From positions 1-46,758 of the forward strand of contig JALSIX010000123.1 in assembly GCA_026989655.1 (NCBI GenBank): DNA of 46,758 bases. The letters run 5' to 3'. A model generated the notes under the pieces. That model was not told the DNA's origin. It did not search any database and saw only the letters and a list, made by a program, of their open reading frames with translations. Shown here piece by piece: positions 22,369 through 30,142 of the stretch (position 1 is the stretch's first letter; every line of letters starts with the position of its first letter). Position numbers and translations under genes: made by a program. This stretch comes from Caldilineaceae bacterium. Its GTDB lineage: Bacteria; Chloroflexota; Anaerolineae; Caldilineales; Caldilineaceae.

Positions 22369-24915
22369 TTAGAGAAACGCGGACTCCAGCTCGGGCAGGG
22401 ACGAGGACTGGCTGCGGACCATCTCCTGGACCAGGGCCACGTACTCGTTGAGGAGAGCGATGGCCCGGGCCGTGGAGCCGGCCTCCACCGAGACCTCGAA
22501 GAAAGGGCGATCGGGGCTGGGCGCGATGTAGACCCATTCCTCCGGGCTCAGGTGGATCTTCAGGCCGTCGAGGGTCTCCACCTCCTGGTGCTGGAAGCGC
22601 TGGTTCAGCAGGCGCATGATGGCCCCCTTGATCTCCCAGGGGCACTTCACCCGGTCCTCGGCCAGGTGGAACGGGGGCAGGTAGGCCACCACCTGGCTGG
22701 CAGGCATCTCCCGTTTGGCCAGGTACTCCAGCAGGCGGACCGTGGCCATCAGGCCGTCCACCGCGGGCATGAAGTCGGGGAAGATGAAGTTGCCCGTGCC
22801 GTCCAGGGCCAGGACCACCTGGGGCTGGGTGGAGGCGGCCATCAGGCTGTGGAGGTCCCGTCGAGTGCGGAGGATCCGGGCGTCGTGCCAGGCGGCCACC
22901 TGGTCGAAGGCCCGGGGCAACACCACGGGGATGGCCACCACCTTGCCCGGGTGCAGGCGTAGGGTCAGCTCCATGAGGAGGAGGGAGGCCACCAGGCTGT
23001 CCAGCACCTGGCCCTGCTCGTCCACCACGAAGATCTTCTCGCCCCCCACGTCCAGCTTCACCCCGACCAGCACGTCCAGCGCGTGGAGGATCTTGGCCAT
23101 GCGCTGGAGGTGGCTCTGGAAGGTGTCCTGGAGCACGGCCAGCTTCGTCTCGTCCACCAGGCCGTTGAGGGGCAGGAAATCCACCCGAAGCTGGTTGAGG
23201 ATGGTGGAGAGGACGTCGCCGGCCAGGCCGTGGGAGTAGTCCACCACCAATTGGCTGTCGAAGCCCTCCAGATAGGCCCGATCCACGTGCTCTAAGAAGT
23301 CCTGGATGTAGCGCTCCACCGGCTCTCGGGCGTAGTTGATCCGGCCGATCTCGTCCAGGTAGGCCCGGCGGAAGTCCTCCCGGAAGAAGATCCGCTCGAT
23401 GGCCCGCTCCTGGGCGGGGCTCTGGTTCAGGCCCTGGGCGTCGATGAAGCGGATGTCCACCACCCGCTGGTCGAAGGGGCTCAGGCGCACGTGGATGCCC
23501 GCCTGGGTGGAGGGCTCGTGGCGGACGAAGTGGCGGGCCACCGGGATGGGCACGGTCCCCAGATCCCACACGTGGATCCCTGCGCTGGGGAGACCGCTGA
23601 TCAGGGCCCGCTTCAGCATCCGGGAGCTCCGGTGGGCATCCCGGTTGATGGCCACGTAGCTCCCCAGGGGCAGGGTCGCCCCCAGGGCACTGCCCAGCTT
23701 GGCCGCGAACTCAGGCGTCAGGTCCACGTTGACCACCCCGGTGACGCCGTACTTGCTGAAGAGGGAGCGACGGCCCTGGCTGCCCCAGATGATGCTGTGA
23801 CGGACCACGGCGCCGGGCTCCACCTCCTTGTTGGGCCACAGTTTCACCCCCGCGTGGATCACCGCGTTCTCGTCCAGCACGCAGTTGTCGCCGATCACCG
23901 CCCCCTCGTAGATCACCACCCCGCTCTTGACGCTGCACTGCCGGCAGATGATGGCCCCCCGGATCTCGCAGGCCTCGCCCACATAGGTGTTGCGCCACAT
24001 GACGCTGTGCTCCACCCGGCTGTAGTTGTCCACCACCGTGTAGTCCCGGATCACCGCGGGGCCGTGGATGGAGACGCCGGCCTTCAGCTTCACCGCGTTT
24101 CCCAGGTAGACAGGGCCGAAGATCTGGGCATCCGGCGCGATCTCCACGTCCCGCCCGGTCCACACGCCGCCCCGCTGCTGGGCCCCCAGGGGCTGGGGCA
24201 GGCGCACCTTGCCCTGGAGCACGTCGGCATTGGCCCGCATGTACTCCTGGATGGTGCCCACGTCGCACCAGTAGCCCTGGGCCACGTGGCCGTACAGGGG
24301 CGCTCCCTGCTCCAGAAGCTGGGGGAAGAGCTGGGTGGCGAAGTCGAAGGGCTCATCCGGGGGGATCTGGGCCAGCACCTCCGGCTCCAGGACGTAGATG
24401 CCGGTGTTCACCGTGTCCGAGATGACGTTGCCCCAATCGGGTTTCTCCAGAAAGCGGACGATACGTCCCTGTTCGTCGGCCACGATGACCCCGTACTCCA
24501 GGGGATTGGGCACCCGGTAGAGGGTCAGGGTGGCCAGGGCACCCTGCTGGCGGTGGGCCTCCAGGATGGCCTTCAGGTCGAAGTCCGTCAGGGCGTCGCC
24601 GCTGATCACCAGGAAGGTATCGTCCAGATGGGCCGCCGCGTTGCGCACCCCGCCGGCAGTGCCCAAGGGCGACTCCTCCACCACGTAGACGATGGAGATG
24701 CCCCACGCGCTTCCGTCGCCGAAGTAGTCCTGGATGGCGGTGGGCATGTACTGCAGGGTCATCACCACCTCGGTGATCTCGTGATGCCTGAGCAGATCCA
24801 GGATGTGGGCCAGGACCGGCTTGTTGACGATGGGGACCATGGGCTTGGGGCGCCCCACAGTCAGTGGACGGAGCCGGGAACCCTCGCCCCCTGCCATGAC
24901 GACGGCTTTCATCAT
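22369..24915 (-). CDS. Mannose-1-phosphate guanylyltransferase fused to a degenerate phosphomannomutase-like domain
   Basis: 848 aa. Residues 1-~235 form an NDP-sugar pyrophosphorylase: '[13 protein letters not shown]' (nucleotide loop), '[13 protein letters not shown]', '[12 protein letters not shown]' (metal Asp), '[14 protein letters not shown]'. Residues ~250-370 are left-handed beta-helix hexapeptide repeats. Residues ~385-848 have the phosphohexomutase fold, but all four active-site loops are changed. TASHNP reads 'RLSPFD' (~477), DGDADR reads 'DVGGEK' (~621), GExSGH reads 'DGTGNF' (~705) and RPSGTEP reads 'APSPDRP' (~795). It likely makes GDP-mannose (or another NDP-sugar) for glycans, with the mutase half structural or regulatory. 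AGGAGGG precedes tandem ATGs at 24915/24912; the first is used. Confidence 0.88.
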
Positions 24916-25045
24916 GGGGAACGGCCCTCCTCTCTCCGGTCCATGCTTCCGGACCGACAACACGGGGGATGGCACGTGGCCCCGACAGCGGGCCTGGACG
25001 TCTCGAACCCCCTTCTCCGGGACCATCTGGGCCCACTGCCCGAGG

Positions 25046-25897
25046 TCAGATGGGCGGCCAGGGGAAGTTGCGTCCCCAGGGGTAGGGCTCGGGATAACGT
25101 TCCCGGGCCAGCAGCTTCGCCAGGCGTCGGCCCAGGGCCTCCTGTTCCGCGGTGCTCAGCCACCGGTACAGGGGGGCCAACACCGCTTCCTCCTCCTGCC
25201 ACAGCCGGGCCAGCCGTCGTAGGTCCTCCAACAGGGCCGACTCGATGGGCTCGCCGGCATACTCCCAGATCACCGTGCGGAGCTTGGGCTCGTGGTGGAA
25301 ACAGATCCCGTGGTCGATGAGCCACAGGCGACCGTCCGGGTCGATCAGACAGTGGCCGCTCTTGCGATCCGCGTTGTTGACCACGTAGTCGAAGAGGGCC
25401 GTGCGGCGAAAGGCCAGGGCGAACCGGGCGTCCTCCTGGACCGCGAAATAGTGGACCTGGGGATCGTGGGGGATGAAGAGCTGGAGGCTGCCCAGGCCTC
25501 GCGGAGCCTGGGAACGGAGCACCGTCGGCGGCACCAGGTTCCAGCCCAGGGCCCTGCTCACCCAGAAGGCGGCCGCCTCCCGCAAGCAGAGGGTCCCTGC
25601 CGGGAAGTCCCACAGGGGGCTCTCCCCGTGCCGGGGCTTGTAGACGGCCAACAGCTCCACCCCGTCCAGGCATACGGTGGCCAGGAAACTGTAGTTGGAG
25701 CTGTAGGGCAGCAGCCCCTGGAGGGCCATGTGGCCATGGGCCAGGATCTCCAGCGTATCCTCGAAGGTGAGGGCCGAGGCCTCCCGGGCATCCGGGGGCT
25801 CTGCCCTGGGGGAGGGGGAAGCGGCCTGGGAGCCTCCTGGATCCGAGGGGTCCAGGGAGTTGCCGTGGTGCGGACGAGGGGGCTCGATGGACGACAT
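25046..25897 (-). CDS. SCO1664-family protein, PI3/4-kinase/HipA-like fold
   Basis: 283 aa. After a ~40-residue Pro/Ser-rich start come kinase-like elements: Lys87 in '[16 protein letters not shown]' (ATP-binding Lys), '[17 protein letters not shown]', the catalytic-loop-like '[14 protein letters not shown]' (Asp177) and the DFG-like '[11 protein letters not shown]' (Asp195). The spacing matches PI3/4-kinase- and HipA-like small kinases, and I recognise the family as SCO1664, which has no assigned substrate. No Shine-Dalgarno is clear for the ATG used, so translation may depend on the DUF3090 gene 24 bp upstream; a later start would trim the disordered leader. It is the third gene of the phosphatase-DUF3090-SCO1664 trio. 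Confidence 0.85.
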
Positions 25898-25921
25898 GGG
25901 TCGGCGGGGGCACGGCCCCGG

Positions 25922-26464
25922 CTACAGGAACAGCGGGAAAGCGTGTCCGTTGGTGCGGGGGCAGAAGTGGCCATCCGGATCGATGGGCTCGCCACATAGG
26001 GGGCACAGGGGCCGCCCCCGGGCCACCACCTCCAGGGCATGTTCGCTCAGGGCACGCATCTGGGCCCGGGTGGCGTAGAAGCGGGCCCGGGGCAGATCGG
26101 CCTCGGGTTCGTCCTCCCGGCTGGGAAGAGCCTGGAGGACCAACACCACCCGGTCCAGGTCTTCATCGTATCCCAGCCCCATCTGGCCCACCCGAAAGGC
26201 CGGGCGAATGGGCTCCTCCAGGTGTAGGGCCTGGGATGGAACCGAGCTGGAAGTGGCCCGTTCTGGATAGCGGGCCTCCACGTCCTCCAGGAGCTCCAAC
26301 ACCGAGGCGGCCAACGCGGCCACCTGCTCCTTCTCCAGGATCAGGGTCACCAGCCGGCTCCCCTGGCGGGCCTGGAGGAGGAAGGTGCGGTTGCCGGGCT
26401 CGCCCACCGCATCGGCCACGATGTGCTGCACGGCATCGAAGTCAAACACGTAATGTGGAGCCAT
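25922..26464 (-). CDS. DUF3090 family protein with C-terminal zinc knuckle
   Basis: 180 aa, the usual family size. Family features are 'YVFDFDAVQHIVADAVGEPG' at the start, 'TLILEKEQVAALAASV' in the middle, and the C-terminal 'CPLCGEPIDPDGHFCPRTNGH'. The last carries CxxC plus Cys and His, a probable zinc site. No biochemical function is known. It sits between the histidine phosphatase (51 bp upstream) and the SCO1664 gene (24 bp downstream), the same partners I recall for DUF3090 in Actinobacteria. The Shine-Dalgarno is weak. Confidence 0.88.
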   Translation of the reverse strand: MAPHYVFDFDAVQHIVADAVGEPGNRTFLLQARQGSRLVTLILEKEQVAALAASVLELLEDVEARYPERATSSSVPSQALHLEEPIRPAFRVGQMGLGYDEDLDRVVLVLQALPSREDEPEADLPRARFYATRAQMRALSEHALEVVARGRPLCPLCGEPIDPDGHFCPRTNGHAFPLFL

Positions 26465-26515
26465 AGCCCTGTGTCCTGCCCGAGATGCGCCGTGGATCTC
26501 CGGGGAAGGAAGCGC

Positions 26516-27232
26516 TCAATCGGCCACCTTCTCCGCCTTGTCCTCTGGCCATTGGACCGCCGGAAACTCCCCGGTCTCGTTCATGCGCAGGAGCCGAGGC
26601 CCGTAGCGGTGGAAGGCCAGCAGGCTCACCGAGCCGTTGTCGATCTGGATGCGCTGGAACAGGTCCAGAGGGATGCCCAGGTAGAAGGCCAGGGCCGTCC
26701 GGATCACGTCCCCGTGGGCAAAGACCGCCACGGCCTGGCCCACGTGCTCCCCCCGGATCCGCTCCAGGGTGGCCACCACCCGGCTCTGGACCTCTCGCAG
26801 GGTCTCCCCGCCCGGGAAGCGGAAACCACTGGGATAGACCTGGACCAGGGACCACTCGGCCCGTTTGCCCAACGCCTTCAGATCACCCCCCTCCCAGTCG
26901 CCGAAGTCCACCTCCAGCAGACCCGGTTCCTCCCGGATCGGGAGCTCCAACGCCTCCGCCAGGGGAGCCGCGGTCTCCACGCAGCGTTCCAAGGGGCTGG
27001 AGTAGATGGCCGAGAGGGGCTGCTTCCGGAGCTGGTGGGCGATGCGGGCTGCCTGCTCCCGGCCCCGTTCATTGAGGTGGACGCCCGGCATGCGGCCGGC
27101 CAGGACGCCCGTTCGATTCCACTCGGTCTGGCCGTGGCGGACGATGAACAGGTAGGTCGTCCGCTCTGGGACGGAAGGGGTAGGGGCCTGGCCGTCCTGC
27201 CCAGGCCCCGGTTCGCGGGTATCGGTGAGCAA
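26516..27232 (-). CDS. Histidine phosphatase family protein (phosphoglycerate mutase-like)
   Basis: 238 aa from a TTG at 27232, supported by GGAGGGGAGG 5-6 nt upstream. Branch-1 histidine phosphatase motifs are present: the phospho-accepting His in 'LFIVRHGQTEWNRTG', 'IYSSPLERCVETA', the acid in 'EVDFGDWEGG' and the second catalytic His in 'AVFAHGDVIRTALAFYLG'. The substrate is not deducible (sugar phosphate, nucleotide or small molecule). It leads the operon with DUF3090 and SCO1664 genes, so it may reverse a phosphorylation made by the kinase-like SCO1664 protein (inference). A strong promoter is 70-100 bp upstream. Confidence 0.9.
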   Translation of the reverse strand: MLTDTREPGPGQDGQAPTPSVPERTTYLFIVRHGQTEWNRTGVLAGRMPGVHLNERGREQAARIAHQLRKQPLSAIYSSPLERCVETAAPLAEALELPIREEPGLLEVDFGDWEGGDLKALGKRAEWSLVQVYPSGFRFPGGETLREVQSRVVATLERIRGEHVGQAVAVFAHGDVIRTALAFYLGIPLDLFQRIQIDNGSVSLLAFHRYGPRLLRMNETGEFPAVQWPEDKAEKVAD

Positions 27233-27302
27233 TGGCGCCTCCCCTCCACAGGGTCTGGACCGACGGACAGCAACGAACCGGACACGGTTCCATGTGTCCC
27301 CT

Positions 27303-27331
27303 ATTGTACCGGAGGGGGTGGTTCTTGTAAA
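27303..27331 (-). promoter_or_regulatory. Promoter of the phosphatase-DUF3090-SCO1664 operon
   Basis: On the minus strand, TTTACA, exactly 17 bp, TACAAT. The start would be near 27296, giving a ~64-nt leader to the TTG start of the histidine phosphatase. It may drive five genes down to the terminator at 21281-21339. Confidence 0.7.
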
Positions 27332-27468
27332 CCTTCACGCCCTTTACCGAAACGGCCAGGTTGCGCCCGGTCCCGGGATGTCGGCGGCGGCCGCCCCCTC
27401 TCCAGAAGTCCCCAGACACATGGGCCCAGGACCCTTTCGGGAACAGGGGTGGGCTCCGACCCGGCCCC

Positions 27469-28965
27469 CTATCCGGTGGGCAGGGCATGGAAGGTCGGGC
27501 GCAGGGCCGGGTACAGGTCCCGGTAGAGGGTGTAGAGGAGCCGATAGCCCTCCACGTGCTCAGGCCGAGGGGCAGTGGTGCCGGTGAGTCGGATCCCCTG
27601 CCGACAGGCGGTGGCCACATCGGGCCAGAAGCCCACCCCGACGCCGGCCAGCAAGGCCGCCCCATAGGCCGCGCCCTCGGTGGTGTGCACGGTGGCCAGC
27701 TCGGTGGCCAGGACATCGGCCAGGATCTGCCGCCACAGGGGGCTCCGGGCCCCGCCGCCGCTGATCCGTACCTGGTGCACCGGACCCAGCCCGGCCTCCT
27801 GCATGAGTGCGAAGCCATCTTTCAGGCCAAAGGCCACCCCCTCCAACACCGCTCGGGTCATGTGGGGCTGGGTGTGGCGCACGGTGAGGCCCACAAAGGC
27901 CCCTCGGGCCAAGGGGTCGGAATGGGGTGTGCGCTCGCCGGTCAGGTAGGGCAGGAAGAGGAGCCCCTCGCTTCCCGGTGGCACGGCCTCCGCGGGGGCC
28001 AGGAGCTGTGGGTAGGGCTGGCCCGGGGCCAGGGTGTCCCGGTACCAGCGCAGGCTGCCCCCCGCGGAGAGCATGACCCCCATCAGGTGCCACTTCCCCG
28101 GCACCGCATGGGGAAAAGCGTGGACCCGTCCCGCTGGGTCGTAGACCGGTCGGTCCACGGTCGCGAAGACCACCCCGGACGTGCCCAGGGTGAGCGCGAC
28201 GATGCCCTCCTCCACCGCGCCCACCCCCACCGCCTGGGCGGCCTGGTCGCCACCGCCGGCCACCACCGGGATCCCGGGCCGGAGCCCCGTGGCCTGGGCC
28301 GCCTCCGGGGTGAGCTGACCGGTGACCTCGGGCCCCTCGTGGGTTCTGGGCAACCAGTCCGACGGGATCTCCAGCGCGGCCAACACCGAGGGGGACCAGT
28401 CCCGGGCCTCCAGATCCAGGAGCAGGGTGCCTCCGGCACCGGCCTTGTCCGTGGCGAAGATCCCGGTGAGCCGGTAGCGGATGTAGTCCTTGGGCAACAG
28501 GATCCGATGGATCCGACGGAAGCGCTCGGGCTCATGTTCCCGCACCCACAGGACCTTGGGCGCGGTGAAGCCGGTCTGGGCATCGTTGCCCGTGATGCGG
28601 ATCAGCTCCCCTGGGCCCACCCGGGCGCGGATGGCCTGGCACTGGGGGCCGGTCCGCTGGTCGTTCCACAGGATGGCGGGCCGCAACACCTCTCCGGCCG
28701 CGTCCAGGAGGACCAGGCCATGCATCTGCCCGGTGAGACCGATCCCCTGGATCTCGCGAGGGGTCACGCCGGCCTCCTGCAGGACCTGGCGCAGGCTCTT
28801 CACCGTGGCCTCCCACCACAGGGCGGGGTCCTGTTCGCTCCACAGGGGCCTGGGCGTGTCGAAGGCGTACCCGTGGGCAGCCACGGCCACGATGTCTGCC
28901 CGGGCATCCATGAGGAGGGCCTTGGTGGCGGTGGTGGAGACGTCGATGCCGAGGGTGTAGGGCAT
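27469..28965 (-). CDS. xylB: Xylulokinase
   Basis: Phosphorylates D-xylulose to xylulose 5-phosphate with ATP. 498 aa, the usual length. FGGY-family elements: 'YTLGIDVSTTATKALLMD' (phosphate-1), 'GIGLTGQMHGLVLLD', 'RPAILWNDQRTGPQ', the catalytic Asp in 'VAGGGDQAAQAVGVG', 'TLGTSGVVFA' and 'RISGGGARSPLWRQILAD' (adenosine motif). The GGAGGTG before the ATG overlaps the xylA stop, so translation is coupled to xylA 13 bp upstream. It is the last gene of a xylose unit. Confidence 0.95.
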   Translation of the reverse strand: MPYTLGIDVSTTATKALLMDARADIVAVAAHGYAFDTPRPLWSEQDPALWWEATVKSLRQVLQEAGVTPREIQGIGLTGQMHGLVLLDAAGEVLRPAILWNDQRTGPQCQAIRARVGPGELIRITGNDAQTGFTAPKVLWVREHEPERFRRIHRILLPKDYIRYRLTGIFATDKAGAGGTLLLDLEARDWSPSVLAALEIPSDWLPRTHEGPEVTGQLTPEAAQATGLRPGIPVVAGGGDQAAQAVGVGAVEEGIVALTLGTSGVVFATVDRPVYDPAGRVHAFPHAVPGKWHLMGVMLSAGGSLRWYRDTLAPGQPYPQLLAPAEAVPPGSEGLLFLPYLTGERTPHSDPLARGAFVGLTVRHTQPHMTRAVLEGVAFGLKDGFALMQEAGLGPVHQVRISGGGARSPLWRQILADVLATELATVHTTEGAAYGAALLAGVGVGFWPDVATACRQGIRLTGTTAPRPEHVEGYRLLYTLYRDLYPALRPTFHALPTG

Positions 28966-28978
28966 GGGGGCACCTCCG

Positions 28979-30142
28979 TCAGCGCACGCCCAGCAGCAGC
29001 TCCACGACCAGCTGGTCCAACGCCTCGTAGGGTTTGCCTCGACGCCCCAGGGCCGCACGGTCGAAGGGGTGGGCCTTCAGGGCCTGGGCCCTCTCCCGGG
29101 TGTAGGATCCCAGGTAAGGGGCCATGGCGCCCTCCTCCCCGCGGATCTCGGCCAACAGCTCCTGGATCTCCCGGTCCTCCCGGAAGCGAGCGGCCTTCTC
29201 CGCCAGGATCAGATAGGTGCGCATGCATCCCCGGGCGAAGGCCTTCACATCCTCGTGGTCCGAGGTTCGGTAGGCGTGGGCATCGAAGTGGCGAGGCCCG
29301 TCGTAGCCCACCTCTTCCAGGAACTGGACCAGCCAGAAGGCCTGCTTGATGTTGTGGGAGCCGAAGCGGAAGTCCTGGTCGTAGCGGGAGAAGTTCTGGT
29401 CGTTCAGATCGATGTGGAAGAGCTTGCCCGCGTCCCAGGCCTGGGCCACCCCGTGCATGAAGTTCAGGCCGGCCATGTGCTCGTGGGCCACCTCCGGGTT
29501 CACCCCCACCATCTCCGGGTGGTCCAGGGTCTCGATGAAGGCCAGCATGTGTCCGGTGGTGGCCAGGTAGATGTCTCCCCGGGGCTCGTTGGGCTTGGCC
29601 TCCAGCGCGAACTTCAGGTCGTAGCCCTGGTCGAGCACGTACTCACAGAGGAAGTTCAGGCACTCTCGGTAGCGCTTCAGGGCCTCCACCGGGTCCTTGG
29701 CCGCGTCCGTCTCCACACCTTCCCGACCGCCCCAGAAGACGTAGACCCGCGCGCCCAGTTCCACGCCCAGGTCGATGGCCCGCATGGTCTTCTGCAGGGC
29801 ATAGGCCCGGACCTCGGGATCGTTGCTGGTGAAGGCCCCGTCCCGGAAGGCCGGATCGCTGAAGAGATTGGTGGTGGCCATGGGCACCACCAGGCCTGTG
29901 TCGTCCAGGGCCTTCTGGAACTCCCGGACGATCCGATCCCGCTCCACCGGCGTCGCGTCGATGGGGACCAGGTCGTTGTCGTGGAAGTTCACCCCCCACG
30001 CGCCCACCTCGGCCAACAGGTGGACCAGCTCCACCGGGGAAAGGGCCGGACGCACCGGCTCGCCAAAGGGATCCCGGCCCACGTTGCCCACGGTCCACAG
30101 GCCAAAGCTGAACTTGTGCTCGGGTCGGGGCTCGTACGCCAT
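28979..30142 (-). CDS. xylA: Xylose isomerase
   Basis: Interconverts D-xylose and D-xylulose in a TIM barrel with two divalent metals. 387 aa, matching the short (class I, Actinobacteria/Thermus) type. Motifs: the catalytic His in '[10 protein letters not shown]', '[10 protein letters not shown]', the Lys/Glu pair in '[15 protein letters not shown]', '[16 protein letters not shown]', '[16 protein letters not shown]' and 'RHFDAHAYR'. The start is the ATG 9 nt inside a GTG that lies in the GGGAGGTGAG Shine-Dalgarno. The amidohydrolase gene is 42 bp upstream and xylB immediately downstream. No xylose-specific regulator or transporter is in the window. Confidence 0.96.

Follow-up and report, generated by a model that had tools for sequence, protein, structure and literature searches.

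Background

The closest described counterparts of the locus reported here are three catalogued protein families of unknown function, namely the branch-1 histidine phosphatases of the MSMEG_4193 family (TIGR03848; hereafter P), the DUF3090 proteins (TIGR03847/PF11290; D) and the SCO1664 family (TIGR03843; S). The literature that we searched describes neither a joint function for these families nor a biochemical assay of S or of D. SCO1664 has been noted as invariably near mshC (PMC4255298). Rv2135c of Mycobacterium tuberculosis, which on gene order and family name is presumed to be a homolog of P, is an acid phosphatase with no mutase activity that was found in membrane fractions and was weak on all substrates tried, with a Km of about 10 mM (PMC3866925). 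MSMEG_4192 and Rv2134c, which gene order suggests are DUF3090 proteins, turn up in transposon screens with dibucaine and rifampicin (PMC10127668, PMC11329110), and MSMEG_4192 also in a ClpC1 interactome; these appearances are hints that do not assign a function.

At the level of predicted structure, the nearest systems are the type II PI4-kinases, Fam20, Helicobacter CtkA and the HipA-like kinases in the case of S, and the PUR-domain proteins, such as Pur-alpha and Borrelia Bpur, in the case of D. The type II PI4-kinases have a Cys-rich, palmitoylated membrane segment between the Lys and the C-helix Glu.

Here we analyze a trio of P, D and S genes in a window of 46,758 nucleotides, the whole stretch of DNA under study, from a Caldilineaceae bacterium of the Chloroflexota (contig JALSIX010000123.1). 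The same gene order in two phyla points to one ancient phosphorylation module, and the reading that we favor, to which we assign a probability of roughly 0.45, is that the trio is an ancient and mainly vertically inherited system for reversible phosphorylation. The preliminary description of this DNA had presented the trio as its best candidate for an undescribed system. As regards the linkage itself this has to be withdrawn, because both the three families and their association with mshC were already catalogued.

Results and discussion

Organization of the locus

P (26516..27232, 238 aa), D (25922..26464, 180 aa) and S (25046..25897, 283 aa) are three consecutive genes on the minus strand, running from 27232 to 25046, with gaps of 51 bp between P and D and 24 bp between D and S. 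They are preceded by a strong predicted sigma-70-like promoter, TTTACA-N17-TACAAT, on the same strand (27303..27331), which agrees with the consensus at 10 of 12 positions and is the only promoter-like site in the interval 24800-27500 (0.0 ± 0.2 in shuffled sequences). The coordinates, strand and spacing given in the preliminary description are exact. The P gene opens with a TTG start codon, and its leader sequence has a GGAGG-type ribosome site ahead of it. Each protein is a member of its family above the curated NCBIfam cut-off: P scores 214.5 bits against TIGR03848 (cut-off 203.85), D 188.5 bits against TIGR03847 (117.25) and S 256.1 bits against TIGR03843 (172.4). The corresponding Pfam assignments are His_Phos_1 for P, DUF3090 for D (PF11290, 178.1 bits, cut-off 27) and PI3_PI4_kinase for S (PF00454, 34.1 bits, cut-off 27.1). 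On the same strand, the genes for xylulokinase and xylose isomerase immediately precede the trio (27469-30142), and 133 bp downstream begins a gene for an 847 aa fused sugar-1-phosphate nucleotidyltransferase/phosphomannomutase-like protein (22369-24912).

Conservation of the gene neighborhood in two phyla

Of 149 Actinomycetota genomes, 67 have D, 68 have S and 73 have P, the last counted at E ≤ 1e-40; all genomes with D carry S and all genomes with S carry P. The order P-D-S is present on one strand at 65 of the 67 D loci, in line with the statement in the preliminary description that these families are neighbors in Actinobacteria, and the two others lie at contig edges with S on another contig. 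One genome of this phylum that has the full trio also encodes a second P-S pair without DUF3090 (G264, contig C17, 152948-154262). Among 251 Chloroflexota genomes D was found in 163 and S in 142, with both present in 133, D only in 30, S only in 9 and neither in 79. Given these 30 and 9 genomes, along with Kocuria, which retains P and S without D, the trio is not obligatory as a set. Among the 148 Chloroflexota D loci listed, S is adjacent in 82 and the whole trio is present in 37, making the full trio patchier than in Actinomycetota. In many Chloroflexota families P either lies far from D or falls under the threshold; in several it is located elsewhere, and several have D alone. The P counts for this phylum are lower bounds, because the phosphatase threshold was strict.

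When the named loci of both phyla are taken together, P-D-S is found on one strand in 56 of 79, and S is accompanied by P, D or both in 75 of 79. The presence of D and S is correlated in each phylum (Fisher p of 3e-42 in Actinomycetota and 2e-29 in Chloroflexota), these values being inflated by the relatedness of the genomes and therefore descriptive only. No other neighbor family in 80 named loci is as conserved as the trio, the next commonest cluster being an ABC-transporter ATPase family in just 10. Functional hints from this ATPase, homoserine dehydrogenase, etfAB, an MgsA-like AAA ATPase, DAG kinase and GDPD were dropped because each occurs in at most 10 of the 80 loci. The linkage is far beyond chance. 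Its strength is that the gene order persists in two phyla although the surrounding genes differ, and in both phyla the three genes form a coherent operon, contrary to the possibility raised earlier that the three families might rarely co-occur outside close relatives.

The tree of S mostly tracks taxonomy, and in it the window sequence groups with two Caldilineaceae loci (support 100/98), which identifies the host as a member of the Chloroflexota. Three loci labeled Rokubacteria also have the trio (L104, L109 and L140); the one included in the tree, L140, nests inside Actinomycetota, which may reflect transfer or a binning error.

The phosphatase and its fusion to DUF3090

R32, H33, R83, H173 and D175 of P are invariant in 29 aligned sequences and the catalytic set is complete, in agreement with the earlier assignment of a branch-1 histidine phosphatase with both catalytic His residues. 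The window protein resembles Rv2135c as a presumed member of the same family, one that acts as an acid phosphatase and not as a mutase (PMC3866925), and differs in having RHG where Rv2135c has RHA. At one locus, L086 (6344-7904), a single ORF encodes P followed by a tail-less DUF3090-like domain; the junction has no internal Met, and a separate DUF3090 gene lies next to the ORF. A second possible P-D fusion, at L106, is less certain, as translation of D could begin on its own at an internal Met. Indirectly, the L086 fusion speaks for an association between P and D.

The properties of P also bear on the main rival of the reversible-phosphorylation module, a metabolic pathway in which S and P catalyze successive rather than opposing steps on a small molecule and D is a binding or chaperone subunit. 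P is closest to small-molecule phosphatases: it resembles alpha-ribazole phosphatase and PspA at scores under their cut-offs and, in the PDB, phosphoserine phosphatase 1; Rv2135c hydrolyzes small phosphates, and the genes are mostly present in one copy per genome. However, Rv2135c performed poorly with all the small substrates offered, and no further pathway enzyme is conserved nearby, given that the next neighbor cluster reaches only 10 of 80 loci. We consider a metabolic pathway somewhat unlikely.

S is a predicted atypical kinase

A single-sequence search recovered no solved structure for S or D, and both were modeled with AlphaFold2. The model of S, built from 78 sequences, has a mean pLDDT of 89.3; among PDB structures it comes closest to PI4KIIα/β (Z 19.3 over 226 residues, 3.5 Å), followed by Fam20 (15.9), CtkA (14.3) and MavQ (10.2). 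A profile of the S family compared with PDB sequences gave weak similarity to the same proteins, FAM20A being the top match (E 5.7e-5) and PI4K type 2-beta the next named (E 1.1e-4), with the catalytic Asp-Arg (DR) and IDNG/LDNA motifs of the three aligned. K87, E107, D177 and D195 are invariant in the 78 S sequences, and the predicted fold together with this Lys, Glu, catalytic Asp and metal Asp places S among the protein-kinase-like/PI3-PI4-kinase folds. The preliminary description had singled out Lys87, Asp177 and Asp195 and had envisaged that they might not align with a kinase active site; in both the predicted structure and the profile alignment they do. His182 is likewise invariant and occupies a position that is Asn in PI4KII (PI4K2B) and Glu in FAM20A, so that metal binding by S may be different. 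We accordingly describe S as a predicted, probably active atypical kinase of the PI4KII/Fam20/CtkA fold.

A HipA-type toxin-antitoxin system can be set aside: HipA_2 scores 13.4 bits against the window S, under the Pfam cut-off of 27, and in place of a HipB-type HTH antitoxin the partners of S are a phosphatase and DUF3090.

If S were instead a bacterial phosphoinositide kinase, P would dephosphorylate the lipid or its head group. The type II PI4-kinases are the closest fold, 70 of the 78 S proteins match Pfam PI3_PI4_kinase, and both the membrane fractions in which Rv2135c was found (PMC3866925) and the dibucaine and rifampicin screens in which MSMEG_4192 and Rv2134c, DUF3090 proteins by gene order, appear (PMC10127668, PMC11329110) would fit a lipid substrate. 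Unlike the type II PI4-kinases, S has a stretch of just about 20 residues, a single Cys among them, between K87 and E107, and thus lacks the Cys-rich palmitoylated segment; in addition to the His182 replacement of the catalytic-loop Asn, this leads us not to class S as a PI4-kinase, although it resembles an atypical kinase. The next folds, Fam20 and CtkA, moreover include protein kinases, and inositol-phosphate synthase is absent from at least 13 of the S-bearing Chloroflexota genomes in the sample, some of them near complete. An inositol-lipid substrate is not required for the trio. Ino1 is of no use as a predictor of S, because it is nearly universal in Chloroflexota (225 of 251 genomes), and our literature search on the context of prokaryotic PI3/PI4-kinases returned nothing specific. 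An inositol-lipid module is therefore distinctly improbable, and the module for reversible phosphorylation would more plausibly act on another kind of target.

DUF3090 has a predicted PUR-like core

The AlphaFold2 model of D (mean pLDDT 90.6) consists of a two-repeat core of beta-sheets and helices with a C-terminal CxxC...C tail. VIA-align places PURA and Pur-alpha repeats I-II at the top, with Z of 9.6 to 9.3; the alignment to PURA (9.6) covers 112 residues and lies three units above the next different fold, at 6.5. Foldseek alone gives a weak match (E 0.0077), and Whirly and MRP1/MRP2 are further, weaker matches. An internal duplication within D is suggestive only: the two helices align (EKEQ/TRAQ) with an hhalign score of 22.1, which was exceeded, at 24.7, by one control out of 60 with shuffled columns. 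We regard a PUR-like fold of the core as moderately supported by the model. D differs from PUR-domain proteins in its acidic composition and its extra zinc tail. The zinc site, which the preliminary description had stressed, is indeed present in the window protein as CxxC...C, but it is variable, being absent from 13 of 73 relatives, and is ruled out as the hallmark of the family; the flanking GR and NG residues are mostly kept.

The PUR-like model raises the alternative that D binds single-stranded RNA or DNA in the manner of PUR or Whirly, with S and P controlling D or its complex by phosphorylation. The structural matches named above, PURA and the Pur-alpha repeats as well as the weaker Whirly and MRP1/MRP2, are all nucleic-acid binders, and bacterial PUR proteins, e.g. 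Borrelia Bpur, are reported to regulate expression (PMC3764826). Against such a regulator, D is acidic (median pI 4.7, with 71 of 73 proteins under 6), no sequence profile connects it to PUR proteins, and a common fold by itself shows no function. Furthermore, the D alignment has no invariant Ser, Thr, Tyr or His, making D an unlikely-looking phosphorylation target. We hold this nucleic-acid role to be highly doubtful, and the reversible-phosphorylation module would more readily have D as a partner of its enzymes.

The association with mycothiol genes

A place in mycothiol synthesis, with P as the missing MshA2 phosphatase and S as a helper, is suggested by the reported proximity of SCO1664 to mshC (PMC4255298). 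Consistent with this, of the 12 Actinomycetota genomes whose MshC exceeds the cut-off, 10 have it no more than 0.9 kb from S, and S is present in 27 of 27 genomes of this phylum that encode either MshC or a protein resembling it (≥390 bits). To this extent the earlier statement that the trio lies near mycothiol genes stands; as a general feature it does not, for the association is secondary and confined to part of the Actinomycetota. Of 68 S-bearing Actinomycetota, 41 are without any MshC-like protein, the MshC cut-off is passed by none of the 251 Chloroflexota genomes, the window's own genome has no MshC-like match at E 1e-105, and in Chloroflexota there is hardly any correlation between S and MshC-like proteins (62 of 96, p 0.05). 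Presence and adjacency in both phyla therefore lead us to reject mycothiol as the primary function of the trio, which is very unlikely indeed.

As a separate observation, an MshC-like protein with a length of about 400-450 aa is encoded in 96 of the 251 genomes from Chloroflexota. It scores 355-409 bits, which is under the MshC cut-off of 485 but above many lower matches at roughly 300 bits; these bacteria may have a mycothiol-like ligase or a second CysRS-like enzyme. The window's own genome encodes an MshA-like glycosyltransferase (contig C86, 56699-57922; 393.8 bits, cut-off 462.5).

Conclusions

In the module that we favor, S would be a soluble atypical kinase, probably an active one, that uses ATP to phosphorylate a target, and P would strip phosphate from the same target or act in the same pathway, thereby opposing S. 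D would be a non-catalytic, PUR-like partner serving as scaffold or regulator for the enzymes, and most directly for P. The target would be a protein or a soluble metabolite in preference to an inositol lipid. More tentatively, the trio may be a chromosomal, vertically inherited signaling module shared by Actinomycetota and Chloroflexota, with a kinase of the PI4KII/Fam20 type, its own phosphatase and a PUR-like adaptor jointly controlling a common target, unlike two-component systems or Hanks-type kinases.

If this is right, mycobacteria, streptomycetes and Chloroflexota would have in common a kinase-phosphatase system not described before, whose atypical kinase is eukaryote-like and whose gene order has been preserved in two phyla. 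The usual association with mycothiol would then be a poor guide to what the P, D and S families do, and three long-standing families of unknown function would gain testable roles.
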